A stretch of 51,529 nt of DNA from Prevotella sp. Its GTDB lineage: Bacteria; Bacteroidota; Bacteroidia; Bacteroidales; Bacteroidaceae. Numbering within the stretch: the stretch's first letter is position 1; every line of letters begins with the position of its first letter. The notes beneath the pieces are model-generated. The model made no database searches, had not been told where the DNA came from, and saw nothing but the letters and a program-made list of their open reading frames with translations. The stretch is from contig JAFYDA010000017.1 in NCBI GenBank assembly GCA_017545045.1, positions 1-51,529 on the forward strand, read 5' to 3'. A program made the translations under genes and the position numbers. This document shows, piece after piece, positions 1 through 5,317 of the stretch.

Positions 1-321
1 ACCATTGATGTAGTTGCGTAGCAGGGTGGCATTCATGCCCAGGGAGCGGGCAAACTCAGCCACATTGATTTCCTTATGGATAAGGAAGAACCGCTGCAGG
101 GGCGTTGGCTCGGTATCGTCGTAGGCGAAACTTTCGAAACTGATGTCCTCGTCAAGTCCGCGCCAATGGATGCCATCGAAACCGAAAGTGTATGCAGCCC
201 TTTCTTCGTCGGTAGCCGTCCGTAACTTAGGATACCAGAGGAGCGACTGGCTGTACTCACGTCCCTCCTCGTCACGACCGTATATGTGTTCGGCATCGAA
301 CCAAATCTCCTTAATCTTCAT
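1..321 (-). CDS. DUF2442 domain protein, 3' end outside window
   Basis: Reading leftward from the ATG at 321, the frame stays open for 107 codons to the window edge, so the C-terminus is missing. The start reads MKIKEIWFDAEHIYGRDEEG, and a later stretch GFDGIHWRGLDEDISFESF matches the usual DUF2442 layout. The last visible part (INVAEFARSLGMNATLLRNY) looks like a helix-turn-helix, as in DUF2442 proteins with a DNA-binding tail. Such proteins are often encoded next to DUF4160 proteins in toxin-antitoxin-like pairs; no DUF4160 partner is visible upstream. A TATCTTTG box lies only 5 nt before the ATG, implying a very short leader. Family assignment is fairly sure; function is unknown. Confidence 0.75.
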   Translation of the reverse strand, partial: MKIKEIWFDAEHIYGRDEEGREYSQSLLWYPKLRTATDEERAAYTFGFDGIHWRGLDEDISFESFAYDDTEPTPLQRFFLIHKEINVAEFARSLGMNATLLRNYING

Positions 322-326
322 AGGCG

Positions 327-334
327 CAAAGATA
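327..334 (-). promoter_or_regulatory. -7 promoter box of the DUF2442 gene
   Basis: The minus strand reads TATCTTTG, a full match to the Bacteroidetes -7 consensus TAnnTTTG. Only five bases separate it from the ATG at 321, so the transcript would be leaderless or nearly so. The -33 box is weak. Confidence 0.5.
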
Positions 335-646
335 GGAATTATTTTTGATACCAAGTACGTTTCAGCTAAATATTTGCCATGATTTAACATTTCGGTGCTA
401 CTTCGTTTATAGAACGACAACTACAAAAGTAAAGAACACCTTCTTCCTCATCCTCTACGAGATGGGCCAGGAAGCCCACGATGCCGTATAATGGGCATCA
501 CCCAAGAGGCTATTCGCTTCACAAGATACAGGATCGAGTAGAATGTGAAGAAGTAGATGATTCAAAAACGCAAAAAAAAGAAGCAAAACTTCCGCAGCGC
601 CTGAAGGATAATACTATTATTTATGGAATATGCTGTCATTGAACTG
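335..646. other. Intergenic stretch without a supported gene
   Basis: I see no convincing gene here. A plus-strand stretch around 440-490 reads as a short open segment that stops after about 20 codons, and a 20-codon ATG frame (623-685) runs through the hairpin at 647-682. These look like decayed coding material rather than intact genes. Confidence 0.4.
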
Positions 647-682
647 AAAAGGCAGGGATTCGGGAGGAATCACCTGCCTTTT
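647..682. terminator. Hairpin terminator after the TIR-caspase-TIR operon
   Basis: AAAAGGCAGG at 647-656 pairs with CCTGCCTTTT at 673-682, a perfect 10-bp stem with A and T flanks, so it could work in both directions. It lies 57 nt beyond the stop of the last gene of the minus-strand defence operon (740). Confidence 0.6.
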
Positions 683-739
683 TGAGTTATTTGTAGAGTA
701 TAAGAATTTGTGATCTATCAGTTTGTGATGCACAAAATA

Positions 740-1291
740 CTATCTTGATGCAATTATATAATCAACAAAGTTTTTTGCTTGTTCTCCATAAATAGCACTC
801 TCTGTAATAATCTGCATTTCATGATTAGTGCCATCCTTTATGAAAGGATAGAGTAATAGATACTCCCTTCTAGGACTAACAGGTGTCGCATCCTTAGAAA
901 CGGGCATTAAAAAGCATCTGTGAGTATGACCATCAACAACACCTAATTCCCATGGCATCCAATTACTTGTTGCTGCACTTGGTGATTGAGCATATAGCAA
1001 TGAATTGCTATTCATGAGGCGCTTGTGAATACGTTCTGCAGTCTGTTTATCCGTCTCACTTCGTTTCATATCTGGATCAACAATGCAATCAAGGTATACT
1101 TTTACACCCTTTTTCTTTAGATAGTAAAAAATACCCTTTACAACTTCTATATCGTTAATGTTGTATGACAAAAATACATCAAATTTTTTGTCCATTGGTG
1201 CTCGAACGCTATCGGCGCTAAAAGTACGCTGTTCCAATATGCTTGTTCGGGCAGTAATATCTCTGAAATAACTTTCTCTATAAAAATCCAT
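740..1291 (-). CDS. TIR-domain protein, third gene of defence operon
   Basis: 183 aa. The TIR fold begins at residues 37-43 (FDVFLSY), followed by a helix and the strand GVKVYLDC, and the likely catalytic glutamate is E115 in WELG, the place of the NADase glutamate in TIR enzymes. The C-terminal part carries the later TIR strands (CFLMPV, LLLYPFI). The ATG at 1291 lies 5 nt after the caspase stop, so the genes are probably co-transcribed; a start at the internal MDKKF (residue 33) would leave just the TIR domain. In known TIR defence systems the enzyme turns NAD+ into a cyclic ADP-ribose signal or depletes NAD+. Which of these applies here is not visible. The protein clearly differs from the first TIR protein of the operon. 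Confidence 0.8.
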   Translation of the reverse strand: MDFYRESYFRDITARTSILEQRTFSADSVRAPMDKKFDVFLSYNINDIEVVKGIFYYLKKKGVKVYLDCIVDPDMKRSETDKQTAERIHKRLMNSNSLLYAQSPSAATSNWMPWELGVVDGHTHRCFLMPVSKDATPVSPRREYLLLYPFIKDGTNHEMQIITESAIYGEQAKNFVDYIIASR

Positions 1292-1296
1292 TATAC

Positions 1297-2280
1297 TTAA
1301 ATTTTACCATCATTAACTAACCTCCAATAATATCGACCAAGATCTGTGAGTTTACATGATTTACTCCTCATGGCGGCAAAGTACATAAATTCTTCGCCAA
1401 CAGGTTTGACAAAGCCAATGCTTTGCAATTTCTGGAGAATCTTAAACTTAGTTACATTCTCCTGGGTTGCGTAAGGTTCCACCCATTTGTGTTCAACAGT
1501 AGGATTGTTAGTGTCCTCAAATGATGGATCTAGTGCGAACTCTTCGTTGGGGTTTGTAAAAAGAGAGGTAAGCTGTCGAATGATTTCCATTGAAACTTGG
1601 GGCTTAACCGTTTTCAAAGGAGCGAAAGCACTTACGTTTGTCTTAAACACAGGTCTTTGAGCCCAAGGCCCAAATGTTCTGTCAATGTATGCATAAATGC
1701 CACCTATTGTAATATTACCACAATAATCAGCTGCGCCACCATTAAGAGCATTGCATAGTTGTTCCGTGAATAATCCGTGTCCTCCAGCTTCTTCAGCGTA
1801 TTCATCATCACGACATGCGGTTAGGATAGAAACGCCTGGTTCCAAAATACTACTAGTAGCTTCTAATTTATACTTTCCCATATTGCCAGAATGACAGCAA
1901 TCCAAAATAATCACTTTGTTTCGAATTGTAGACTTATTGACTATGTCCATGATTGAAGACATTTGTAGGCCTGTATAGTATTGAGTTTCTGACTCTATGT
2001 CATGTGGCATTACTATTTCTGCACCTGTCGTATTTACATACCCGTGACCTGAGAAATATAGTAACGCAGTGTCAGAACCGTTATCTGTAAATAACTGCTC
2101 AATAGCGACCATCGCCTTTGCAGATGTCTGGACATCTTCTAGCTTTAAGACCTCAAAATTTGGAGAACCATCGCCATTACGTTCAAGAGCTGTAGCTACT
2201 TGATGAATGTCTTCAATGCATCCCTTTAATTCATTGCCTGCAGGGTAGGAATTGATACCTATTAATAATGCTTTTTTCAT
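1297..2280 (-). CDS. Caspase-like protease (peptidase C14 family)
   Basis: 327 aa. The start ATG at 2280 gives MKKALLIGINSYPAGNELKG, the standard N-terminus of bacterial caspase-like domains; the longer open frame upstream overlaps the preceding gene and is cysteine-rich junk. The catalytic histidine is H79 (YFSGHGYV) and the catalytic cysteine C129 (ILDCCHSG). The caspase domain ends near residue 222. The last ~100 residues form a separate region, with a possible winged-helix segment at 278-325 (KILQKLQSIGF, LTDLGRYYWRLV). It lies 11 nt after the first TIR gene and 5 nt before the second. TIR-plus-caspase pairs are known as type IV Thoeris, where a TIR-made cyclic ADP-ribose activates the protease during phage infection. 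I infer that role by gene content. Confidence 0.87.
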   Translation of the reverse strand: MKKALLIGINSYPAGNELKGCIEDIHQVATALERNGDGSPNFEVLKLEDVQTSAKAMVAIEQLFTDNGSDTALLYFSGHGYVNTTGAEIVMPHDIESETQYYTGLQMSSIMDIVNKSTIRNKVIILDCCHSGNMGKYKLEATSSILEPGVSILTACRDDEYAEEAGGHGLFTEQLCNALNGGAADYCGNITIGGIYAYIDRTFGPWAQRPVFKTNVSAFAPLKTVKPQVSMEIIRQLTSLFTNPNEEFALDPSFEDTNNPTVEHKWVEPYATQENVTKFKILQKLQSIGFVKPVGEEFMYFAAMRSKSCKLTDLGRYYWRLVNDGKI

Positions 2281-2291
2281 AATGGGGCTGG

Positions 2292-2699
2292 TTACTGGTT
2301 TTGATAAATAGCGTAATTCCTTACGGCATTTGCAACAGACTTGGCATTCCATCCTACCCGTACAGTAGCAGCATTCCTTACCACGGTAGATGTTCGTAAA
2401 GAACCCCATGGTTCTACCGCTATGATTGGCTTGTTGTATTTCTTTGCCAATTCAATTTCAATGTTAATCCACTTACTATATGACGCATACACGCCAGCAA
2501 GTATTATAACACAGCTACAGCCTTTGATTTTGGCTTCAATTGCCTCTCTAAGCTGTTTGTCTGTACCATTGGTGTGAACAGGATCGTTCTTTGGTACAGA
2601 ATGGTTGTAGTAACTTACACCTTCTTGCGAGAGAAAACTCTCAACTTTGTCATACTGGCTAGAATAAGCCCATGAATGGGAGATAAAGATTCTATACAT
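2292..2699 (-). CDS. ThsB-like TIR protein (MTH538/DUF1863 type)
   Basis: 135 aa starting at ATG 2699 (MYRIFISHSWAY); a TTG two codons upstream is a weaker alternative. The N-terminal strand FISHSW and the segment CSCVIILAGVYASYSKW followed by NIEIELA are typical of the MTH538-like TIR family (DUF1863), the family of Thoeris ThsB sensors. E81 is the likely catalytic glutamate. It is the first gene of the minus-strand operon, followed after 11 nt by the caspase-like gene. ThsB proteins sense phage and make a cyclic ADP-ribose isomer; the product here cannot be told from sequence. Base composition is AT-rich compared with the chromosomal genes further on. Confidence 0.83.
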   Translation of the reverse strand: MYRIFISHSWAYSSQYDKVESFLSQEGVSYYNHSVPKNDPVHTNGTDKQLREAIEAKIKGCSCVIILAGVYASYSKWINIEIELAKKYNKPIIAVEPWGSLRTSTVVRNAATVRVGWNAKSVANAVRNYAIYQNQ

Positions 2700-3117
2700 A
2701 AGCAATTTGCTTTAAATTAAATAAAAAGTATTAACCATATTTTTTATGATATTAATGATGGTTAGGTAGTTAACGCTCTTTATGAGCCCTTCGAGAGAAC
2801 ATTCGTAATGAATATATAATTAATACGAACGAGATTAGTTCTAATAATGCGCTTCTCATGAGATTTATGGCGCCTTACTTTCACTTTTGCAAACAATGTG
2901 CCAGAAATGCAACAGATTCCTCAATTTTGTAATAACAATGAATCTGTTTCTTTAAAATGATAGACAATATATCCATTAAAGTAATTGTGTGCCAAATTGT
3001 CACAACATACAGGTTATCCATCTCGTTTATTACGTTCAAGTGAAACGCACCCCAGAAGGTACTGTCAGGAATCAAAGGGCAGGAAAGGTAACATGTGTTA
3101 TAAATACTAAGAATGAA
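2700..3117. other. AT-rich intergenic region upstream of defence operon
   Basis: No supported gene. A minus-strand frame of 64 codons (2881-3075) resembles no family I know and lacks a clear start signal. The stretch holds an imperfect 28-nt palindrome at 2802-2829 (TTCGTA arms, 11 of 14 positions symmetrical) that could be an operator for the defence operon. No perfect TAnnTTTG box was found directly before the ATG at 2699. Confidence 0.4.
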
Positions 3118-3151
3118 AAATCAACACATCCTTTATTGGACGTGTTGATTT
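3118..3151 (-). terminator. Orphan hairpin terminator
   Basis: AAATCAACAC (3118-3127) pairs with GTGTTGATTT (3142-3151), with an inner TCC/GGA pairing. On the minus strand the stem is followed by TTTTT, as in an intrinsic terminator. The gene it would have served is now only a truncated Crp/Fnr fragment to its right, so it is probably a leftover. Confidence 0.55.
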
Positions 3152-3173
3152 GGTTCATAGTGGCAGAGGGGAA

Positions 3174-3288
3174 TCACGGGGTCGGTTCTCCTGATCATTT
3201 TCAAGAGTCTGATATCTCTATGCTTTATTACTTGTCTCATTCGCATTTCACTTAATTTGAAAAATGATCAGAAGAACCGACCCCATGA
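3174..3288. repeat. 115-bp inverted-repeat mini-element (REP/MITE-like)
   Basis: GGGGTCGGTTCTCCTGATCA starts the left arm (3178-3202) and is mirrored by a right arm ending in ACCGACCCC (3259-3284), with one mismatch and one indel over about 25 bp; outer TCAY/RTGA bases extend it. The 56-nt centre has no gene. Such arms resemble repetitive extragenic palindromes moved by REP-associated transposases; no transposase is nearby. It directly abuts a truncated Crp/Fnr coding sequence. Confidence 0.65.
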
Positions 3289-3487
3289 TGATGTGTTCCT
3301 TGTCGTCGCTGATGCCGTGAGTCACGTACTTGAAGCACCCCTCGGTGACGAAGCCGAACCACCGTGCGGGGTCGCCCTCGCGCTCCAGCTGTTCGCCCTT
3401 GCGGTACTCCACCATCTTGCCCTCGCGCTCGCAGAACTCGCGCAGCGCCTTGATGTCAATGCTATTTTTCCCGAATTTCTGTTCCAT
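3248..3487 (-). pseudogene. Crp/Fnr-family regulator, N-terminal fragment
   Basis: From ATG 3487 the frame reads MEQKFGKNSIDIKALREFCE, then YRKGEQLEREGDPARWFGFV and EGCFKYVTHGISDDKEHII, the start of a cyclic-nucleotide-binding domain as in Bacteroidetes Crp/Fnr regulators. The match stops at about 3288, exactly where the inverted-repeat element begins, and the frame then runs through the element to a stop at 3248. The rest of the sensor domain and the whole DNA-binding domain (normally about 220 aa in total) are missing, and I do not find them on the other side of the element. It is therefore a pseudogene, not a functional regulator. Confidence 0.75.
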
Positions 3488-3548
3488 TTTCGTCGTATTT
3501 GTAGGCAAAGGTAGTGAATTCGAATGGTAACGCTTGTCTTTTTTCTTT

Positions 3549-3824
3549 TTATCCTAACCGTTTGAGCCAGATGCCCATAAAGCGGTCGTAAACAATATAC
3601 CCCTCAATGGTCTTATAAACCAGGTCTTTGTCTATCAGCACAGCCAGTGCGGACTTGACGCTGCTGACACTGGGCAACTCATATCGTTTGATAAAGTCGT
3701 TACTCAGCGGCTGTAGCACGGTTTCGTCCATAGCAATGGCTTTAAGCAGAGAGAATTGATTGTCGGTAAGAAACGTAGTTAGTGTCTGATAATACGGTGC
3801 TAATCCTCCACCACCGAAAGGCAT
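3549..3824 (-). pseudogene. C-terminal remnant of an AAA ATPase gene
   Basis: The 91-codon frame reads YYQTLTTFLTDNQFSLLKAI, then LPSVSSVKSALAVLIDKDLV and EGYIVYDRFMGIWLKRLG. This matches the C-terminal winged-helix and tail of the Bacteroidetes family of predicted ATPases (P-loop at the N-terminus, about 380-450 aa). No P-loop or start is present: upstream the frame runs directly into tRNA-Gln. It is a 5'-truncated fragment left between the tRNA gene and the Crp/Fnr fragment, suggesting repeated insertion and deletion here. Confidence 0.65.
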
Positions 3825-3889
3825 ACGTCGCCAATGAGTTATCCTTCTCGCTATTTGTCTTGTATTCAGAGAGAAATCTGTTTGGATAG

Positions 3890-3960
3890 TTGGACGACTC
3901 GGATTCGAACCGGGAATGACAGAACCAAAACCTGTAGTGTTACCATTACACCATCGTCCA
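3890..3960 (-). tRNA. tRNA-Gln (UUG anticodon)
   Basis: The minus strand forms a full cloverleaf: acceptor TGGACGA with TCGTCCA, D-arm GTGT/ACAC, anticodon loop TTTTGGT giving anticodon UUG, and T-loop GGTTCGAATCC. Discriminator A is at 3890; CCA is not encoded. It lies just after tyrS, at the boundary between backbone genes and the scarred accessory stretch. Confidence 0.95.
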
Positions 3961-3970
3961 ATCGCGGGTG

Positions 3971-4002
3971 CAAAGTTAGTAAAAATTCGGCAAACAGCCA
4001 AA
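3971..4002 (-). promoter_or_regulatory. Promoter of tRNA-Gln
   Basis: On the minus strand a TTTG -33 box (4002-3999) and a TAACTTTG -7 box (3978-3971) are separated by 20 nt, the expected Bacteroidetes spacing. The -7 box ends 10 nt before the mature tRNA 5' end. Confidence 0.75.
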
Positions 4003-4013
4003 TTTTTACTAAC
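3975..4013 (-). terminator. Hairpin after tyrS, overlapping tRNA promoter
   Basis: GTTAGTAAAAATT (3975-3987) and AATTTTTACTAAC (4001-4013) are perfect 13-bp inverted repeats, with a further GGC/GCC pairing inside. It begins 5 nt after the tyrS stop and physically overlaps both promoter boxes of tRNA-Gln. Confidence 0.6.
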
Positions 4014-4018
4014 TTATC

Positions 4019-5317
4019 TTATTTTACAATCAGCAGATAGTAATTCTTCTTGCCTTTCTGTGCAAGCAGATACTTCCCGTCAATCAAATCGGCCTCAGAG
4101 ACGGGACGCTGCGGATCGGTCAACTTCTCCTTGTTAAGAGAGACTCCACCACCCTGCACCATCTTGCGCATCTCACCCTTTGAGGGGAATACGGGGGCAA
4201 TGGTCGTGAAGAGCTCAATAGCGGGCTGACCCAGTTGATCTTTCGTCACCTCAAACTGAGGAACACCATCGAAGACATCCAGGAATGTCCGCTCGTCGAG
4301 TTTCTCCAGTCCCTCCTTGGTAGACTTGCCAAAGAGGAGGTTAGAGGCCTCGATAGCAGCGTCGAGGGCTTCACGGGAATGGACCATCACTGTGACTTCC
4401 TCTGCCAGGCGCTTCTGTAGCACGCGGCGGCCAGGATCCTGCTTGTGCTCCTCTATGAGTGCATCGATGACGTCCTTTTCCAATGAAGTAAAGATCTTGA
4501 TGTAGCGCTCGGCATCGTCATCACTGACATTAAGCCAGAACTGATAGAACTTATAAGGTGTGGTGCGGGCAGGGTCAAGCCAGATGTTGCCACTCTCTGT
4601 CTTACCGAACTTCTTGCCATCGCTCTTGGTGATGAGCGGACAGGTGAGAGCGAACGTTTCCACCTCGTTACCCAGTGTGCGGCGAATCAGCTCCGTACCT
4701 GTGGTCATGTTGCCCCACTGGTCGTTACCTCCCAACTGCAGCTTGACGCCATGGTGCTGGTAAAGGTACAGGAAGTCGTAGCCCTGGAGGAGCTGATAAG
4801 TGAACTCGGTGAATGACAGTCCGTCGCGGGCTGTACCATTCAGACGCTGCTGCACACTTTCTTTGGCCATCATGTAGTTGACGGTAATATGCTTGCCTAC
4901 CTCGCGGGCAAAGTCAAGGAACGTAAAGTCCTTCATCCAGTCGTAGTTGTTGACCATTAAAGCGGCGTTCTCATCCTTGGATTCAAAGTCGAGGAACTTG
5001 GCCACCTGACGCTTGATGCACTCCTGATTGTGGCGCAGCGTCTCATCGTTCAACAGATTACGCTCCTGTGACTTACCACTGGGGTCGCCAATCATACCCG
5101 TAGCACCTCCTACAAGGATGACGGGACGATGGCCGCAACGCTGCAGGTGACGCAGCATCATGATACCGCAAAGATGGCCTATGTGGAGCGAGTCGGCTGT
5201 AGGATCCGTACCAAGATAAGCCGTTACCATTTCTTTCTGAAGCAACTCTTCCGTGCCTGGCATCATCTGTGCCAGCATGCCACGCCAACGTAGTTCTTCA
5301 ACAAAATTCTTTCTCAT
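4019..5317 (-). CDS. tyrS: Tyrosine--tRNA ligase
   Basis: 432 aa, the usual bacterial length. It charges tRNA-Tyr with tyrosine in the cytoplasm. The class I HIGH motif is at 45-48 (LHIGHL), the KMSKS-equivalent KFGKTES at 236-242, the tyrosine-binding region NYMMAKESV near 147-155, and a C-terminal S4-like RNA-binding domain is present from about 360 ([13 protein letters not shown]). It lies between secDF upstream and tRNA-Gln downstream on the same strand; a strong hairpin separates it from secDF, so it probably has its own promoter in the short gap. Confidence 0.97.

Follow-up and report, generated by a model that had tools for sequence, protein, structure and literature searches.

The window, a stretch of 51,529 nucleotides of Prevotella sp. 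DNA, carries a TIR-caspase-TIR operon that matches type IV Thoeris in its architecture and adds to it a second TIR gene of another subfamily. Across the related loci that we collected, the small TIR and the caspase are the recurrent core and the second TIR is an accessory, since no locus has the second TIR without a small TIR. Reading the second TIR as modular suits these loci better than making it part of one fixed subtype.

Gene content and DNA context of the operon

The three minus-strand genes that a preliminary description of this DNA had listed, separated by gaps of 11 and 5 nt, are all present as open reading frames (Table 1), and so are the residues that it had named for a ThsB-like TIR protein, a caspase-like protease and a second TIR protein. 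Gene 1 matches ThsB_TIR (PF08937) with an E value of 7e-17 and 62.1 bits, above the Pfam cut-off of 21.2, and PADLOC ThsB with an E value of 4.7e-14. Gene 2 matches the caspase family (PF00656) at 4.3e-20 and a PADLOC caspase at 2.8e-24; its only NCBIfam match is the EACC1-associated caspase model, below the cut-off of that model. Gene 3 matches TIR_2 (PF13676; E 1.5e-7, 32.4 bits against a cut-off of 28), stays below the Pfam cut-off for ThsB_TIR (16.5 against 21.2 bits) and is matched by PADLOC ThsB (E 2.2e-39; PDLC00422 with 133 bits). These domain scores, together with full-length relatives at about 35-50% identity, rule out chance for all three genes.

Table 1. Features of the operon and its tRNA neighbor in the window.
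Feature	Position	Strand	Remarks
Gene 1, small TIR protein	2292..2699	minus	First operon gene; 135 aa; P0001; cluster B; Glu81
Gap between genes 1 and 2	2281..2291	minus	11 nt
Gene 2, caspase-like C14 protease	1297..2280	minus	327 aa; P0002; PF00656; His79/Cys129
Gap between genes 2 and 3	1292..1296	minus	5 nt
Gene 3, second TIR protein	740..1291	minus	183 aa; P0003; cluster BIG; TIR_2, PADLOC ThsB; Glu115
tRNA-Gln(ttg)	3889..3960	minus	Operon on its 3' side, in low-GC DNA

In the aligned relatives of the caspase, His79 is found in 51 of 52 sequences and Cys129 in all 52. The listing of reading frames offers an alternative start at 2409, giving a protein of 370 aa that overlaps gene 1; the start at 2280 is backed by the relatives, 43/52 of which have a Met in that column. 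The C-terminal part, from about residue 215, consists of columns conserved among the relatives, and no PDB sequence match covers it, the matches stopping at residue 180 or earlier. In a locus from Bosea (L029, 3001-3994) the caspase frame is broken, with two open reading frames matching P0002, and both TIR genes are open; the longer piece of this caspase was used as found.

The operon has a GC content of 0.388 against 0.505 for the whole window, and a GC3 of 0.28-0.37 against 0.64 in tyrS and secDF. This foreign base composition fits horizontal acquisition. On the 5' side of the operon lie a cNMP-binding-like fragment (Pfam match below the cut-off), the tRNA-Gln gene, tyrS and secDF, and on its 3' side a DUF2442 protein truncated where the contig stops. 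The operon is not visibly part of a defence island, lying between the contig end 739 nt past it and tyrS/secDF on the other side. The tRNA gene is a possible, unproven integration site, and no direct repeats marking an integrated element were found in window positions 1-4100. An inverted repeat of 29 nt (93% complementary; 3173-3201 and 3261-3289) lies between the operon and the tRNA. The TIR-caspase-TIR operon was found as a single copy in the genome of the window (contig C83; genome 59% complete).

The small TIR, the caspase and their neighbors in related loci

Relatives of P0002 were drawn from species genomes, plasmids, phage records and viral contigs, and 52 loci were taken further. In two pairs of these, L068/L069 and L078/L083, the caspase ends are identical, and L034 is truncated by the end of its contig. 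With open reading frames called mechanically, some proteins begin too far upstream, which produces large overlaps (for the window caspase, -118 instead of 11). At an E value of 1e-30, and with centre genomes included, P0002 matches were found in 5/395 genomes of the window's phylum and in 3/369, 2/337, 13/280 and 2/164 genomes of other groups. At 1e-10, they were found in 6/295 genomes of the window's own order, with full-length matches in the window and two others. For the TIR proteins, a phmmer query with P0001 alone recovered only part of the small TIRs. Iterated profiles merged the different TIR kinds and served only to collect TIRs; the clusters come from an all-against-all comparison of these at an E value of 1e-12. 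The small TIR of the window falls in cluster B (eight members), the rarer type, found in 8/52 loci, including L004 where it occurs together with an A-type TIR that overlaps it as called. Its Glu81 is aligned in 8/8 B-type TIRs, and the Glu is likewise fixed in the A type (44/44).

In 49 of the 52 loci the caspase shares a same-strand run with a small TIR from cluster A or B. This TIR is mostly 5' of the caspase, with a 3' position in L034, L060, L065, L066 and L075, and in L071, where it stands behind a SLOG-like gene. The three caspase loci without such a TIR are L064, L067 and L005, the last of which has the caspase followed by an 8xMP protein. In L064 (1157-4055), a different kind of TIR_2 gene comes after the caspase, which it overlaps as called, and is itself followed by a 756-aa protein without a Pfam match. 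In L067 (5504-6469), the caspase lacks a small TIR, and the STING-TIR gene near it (PF20300 and PF10137) hints at another signal input. Among the further caspase loci in viral contigs, 14/15 have an A or B TIR nearby on the same strand, the exception being L119; the small TIR scores low in L115 and is about 180 nt away in L111. Distances of A-type TIRs and caspases are correlated (r 0.50 over 37 loci), and no co-divergence with the caspase was found for B-type TIRs over 7 loci (r 0.00, p 0.50).

Several loci carry extra operon genes. A stand-alone gene of about 160 aa occurs in the caspase operon in 9/52 loci (L017, L028, L060, L071-L075 and L084); it is annotated as DUF1273 in L084, which we take to be SLOG-like, and no Pfam match was found in the 3/9 members scanned. 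It could encode a separate signal-binding protein. It is accompanied by the second TIR in 7/9 cases (Fisher p 0.0019 over 49 loci, uncorrected for descent). Another gene, encoding about 162-170 aa, ends the operon in L060 (5846-6334), L075 (5851-6363) and L071 (5809-6300), and the two scanned have sub-threshold Pfam matches to DUF4062 (0.019, L060) and PARG (0.009, L071). Directly 3' of the caspase in 10/52 loci (L021, L022, L023, L026, L027, L078 and L080-L083), and also in L119, there is a gene of about 90 aa with an EHxRWxxWQ motif. Eight of nine aligned members weakly match RyR (PF02026; best E 0.00032, below the cut-off). The corresponding profile has its best PDB sequence matches in ryanodine receptors; these span about 27 residues, and most of them are too weak to count alone. 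Because phage proteins with RyR domains cleave or sequester 2'/3'cADPR (PMC13232231; all articles with PMC numbers are cited here from excerpts), the RyR-like gene may, by analogy, be a candidate for a built-in signal damper.

Linkage and turnover of the second TIR

The preliminary description had allowed for the possibility that the three genes are not found together elsewhere, or that gene 3 is a random neighbor. They do recur. A TIR of the cluster around P0003, named BIG (17 sequences in the all-against-all comparison), lies in the caspase operon in 15/52 loci (L018, L025, L029, L060, L063, L065, L066, L071-L075, L082, L084 and the window), always with a small TIR; this count is not a frequency, because the plasmid sample was selective (22 of 96 records were fetched, as best matches plus a spread, with H61 chosen partly for an annotated TIR). 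Two further members of the cluster are only near a caspase, on the other strand in L028 and about 2 kb away in L070. In 10/15 loci, gene 3 is less than 15 nt from an adjoining gene, or overlaps it as called, this gene being the caspase or another labelled member of the operon. A search with P0003 itself in 136 genomes from the order of G508 gave 10 matches at an E value of 1e-6, seven of which lie in a caspase operon, and for strong matches (E below 1e-25) this is true of 7/8. The remaining strong match (L099) is a TIR/SLATT locus without a P0002-like caspase, and two weak matches (L101 and L102) are other loci with several TIR genes. In 19 caspase-bearing genomes there are 11 P0003-like genes, of which nine are in the operon, one is about 2 kb away and one is far. 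A random neighbor is ruled out by the 15 loci and by the operon linkage of 9/11 and 7/10. In one order, surveyed with all long caspase matches fetched and the partial match G1605 left out, the second TIR is in the operon in 8 of 13.

The subfamily of gene 3, which is also that of chain B of PDB entry 8btn ("TIR domain-containing protein"; profile E 1.2e-57), extends further. P0003-like matches occur in 37 plasmid records, and the E. faecalis record is the only one examined that has a caspase operon as the best place; five others examined have several TIR genes each, one of them beside a SIR2-family gene, and no P0002-like caspase was found in their fetched stretches. TIR-rich loci with this subfamily were found in S. 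meliloti (L103), A. johnsonii (L104), E. cloacae (L106), S. chiapasense (L107), Indioceanicola (L105, with a SIR2-family gene) and G649 (L099, with a SLATT protein), which, unlike the window, show no P0002-like caspase in the fetched stretch. Such relatives on plasmids and in other TIR loci indicate that the P0003 subfamily is not exclusive to caspase operons. Other TIR systems share it, and the tie to the caspase concerns one lineage of it, in the window's class. In viral contigs, P0003-like genes were found in four loci and the second TIR in the caspase operon in 0/15. Being missing from 37/52 loci and from all of these viral-contig loci, the second TIR is dispensable.

From the third gene and the layout with one TIR on each side of the protease, a distinct subtype had been suggested as a possibility. 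The gene order varies among loci. The arrangement small TIR-caspase-BIG is found in five only (the window, L018, L025, L029 and L063) and BIG-caspase-small TIR in L060, L065, L066 and L075, so that the caspase has a TIR directly on both sides in 9/52 loci, in two opposite orders. Both TIRs are on one side (BIG-small TIR-caspase) in L072-L074 and L082, and a SLOG-like gene is interposed in L084 (small TIR-caspase-SLOG-BIG) and L071 (BIG-caspase-SLOG-small TIR).

The trees agree poorly with the proposed subtype. On the caspase tree, for which, as for the Fisher test, 49 rows were used (L034, L069 and L078 were dropped), the second TIR is scattered, its presence taking 10 gains or losses, at least nine of them forced by starred branches. 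As few changes were needed in 17/500 shuffles, which indicates some clustering of the second TIR too. The caspases of the window-class loci with a second TIR fall in four separate branches. The BIG tree has two branches, one comprising the window, its class and Enterococcus faecalis, and the other alphaproteobacterial. In this tree, the window-class copies that are linked to a caspase form one group (93/97, not starred), which also contains one copy without a caspase. A single clade of all 15 caspase-linked BIG copies is rejected (AU p 0.006), and a clade of the nine window-class copies is not (p 0.14; p 0.099 with E. faecalis added). The exact place of the window rows is unsure because of long branches. 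Over 10 loci, the distances among gene 3 proteins are correlated with those among the caspases (r 0.61, p 0.0002), partly owing to close pairs. One fixed TIR-caspase-TIR subtype is ruled out by the 10 changes on the caspase tree together with the AU test, and it is the variable gene order and these changes that lead us to regard the second TIR as modular.

Relation to Thoeris systems and possible mechanisms

Type IV Thoeris, a TIR-caspase system, was reportedly described by Rousset et al. in Science in 2025, and a sponge against TIR-caspase signalling is said to have been described by Chen in 2026. The TIR of type IV Thoeris produces N7-cADPR, and the caspase-like protease is activated by it (PMC12847820); this type is counted in PMC13373217. 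Thoeris systems have one or several ThsB genes (PMC11204291). Type IV Thoeris and extra ThsB genes in Thoeris are already known. The assignment of the window operon to this type was partly borne out, in its architecture. As in type IV, a TIR gene and a caspase-like protease gene lie in one operon, on the same strand and 11 nt apart, with the Glu of the former and the His/Cys dyad of the latter intact and conserved in relatives; unlike type IV, the operon, to which gene 3 belongs, has a second TIR of another subfamily. This match is one of architecture rather than of comparison with characterised proteins, and there is no type IV model among the NCBIfam matches. No type I/II ThsA effector (SIR2-SLOG or TM-macro) was found by Pfam in the three genes, the DUF2442 protein, the cNMP-binding-like fragment, tyrS or secDF; the remaining short reading frames were judged by translation, and base 1 is the end of the contig. 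The literature searched, which consists of partial texts and lies outside the founding type IV papers, gave no description of TIR-caspase operons with a second TIR.

Gene content and the known mechanisms of TIR proteins make it the economical reading that one caspase has two TIR detectors. We consider it fairly probable that this is an abortive-infection operon working like type IV, in which gene 3 is an accessory phage sensor feeding the same caspase. We infer that, upon phage infection, the small TIR would use NAD+ to make a cyclic ADP-ribose as a signal, which is N7-cADPR in type IV Thoeris as characterised (PMC12847820), that this signal would activate the caspase-like protease, and that the resulting degradation of cell proteins would stop the phage. 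Gene 3 would most likely be another cyclase, one that responds to a different trigger from the phage, and a single caspase effector would thus serve both TIR detectors.

Alternatively, gene 3 (or gene 1) might act as a phage receptor and bring in the other TIR, the signal being made by the latter alone. A relay of two TIRs is documented in S. aureus type I Thoeris, where ThsB1 binds a capsid protein and recruits ThsB2, the cyclase (PMC12578639). That ThsA-ThsB1-ThsB2 system resembles the window in having one effector and two different TIRs in one operon, and differs from it in that the effector is an NAD+-degrading STALD-domain ThsA rather than a protease (PMC12578639). Since a putative catalytic Glu is present in both S. 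aureus TIRs and cyclase activity is assigned to ThsB2 (PMC12578639), a TIR Glu alone is no proof of catalysis. Gene 3 of the window also has altered residues near the TIR site, namely Tyr43 where the other 16/17 members of its cluster have His, and Cys69 where the relatives in its own branch have Trp. However, Glu115 and the neighboring Trp111, Pro113 and Trp114 are invariant in 17/17 members, which a pure receptor would not need, and, as judged by gene content, most loci have the core pair and no gene 3. We therefore regard such a relay as rather unlikely.

It is more doubtful still that gene 3 makes a different cyclic ADP-ribose isomer, with the caspase or some other protein reading both signals. 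ThsB proteins of other Thoeris types make different isomers, the best scores of gene 3 are with PADLOC ThsB models, and its kin outside caspase operons lie in multi-TIR loci, one of them beside a SIR2-family gene. The SLOG domain of ThsA binds 3'cADPR (PMC11204291), and the SLOG-like gene of related operons mostly accompanies gene 3. The window operon, however, has neither a SLOG-like gene nor a second effector, and a second ligand site is not evident. Finally, that gene 3 is a passenger, or a remnant of a different Thoeris system, next to a type IV operon complete with its two genes would suit its absence from most loci, its kin in other TIR loci and the divergence of the window copy (end branch of 1.73 against a median of 0.44 in the BIG tree), but is very improbable in view of its recurrent linkage in the window's class, Enterococcus and Alphaproteobacteria and its tight spacing in 10 of the 15 operons.

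If gene 3 is indeed an accessory sensor, bacteria would widen their caspase immunity by connecting additional TIR detectors to a single protease, and the two-TIR operons would be natural systems for studying how TIR proteins share sensing and signalling. In operons with the RyR-like gene, that gene would be a candidate for a signal damper built into the system, to be compared with the phage RyR-domain proteins already known. More tentatively, type IV Thoeris might be a modular platform in which one caspase is combined with swappable TIR detectors and SLOG- or RyR-like genes, and in which two-TIR operons integrate two detectors or signals. Such a platform would be a bacterial analogue of multi-input caspase control.
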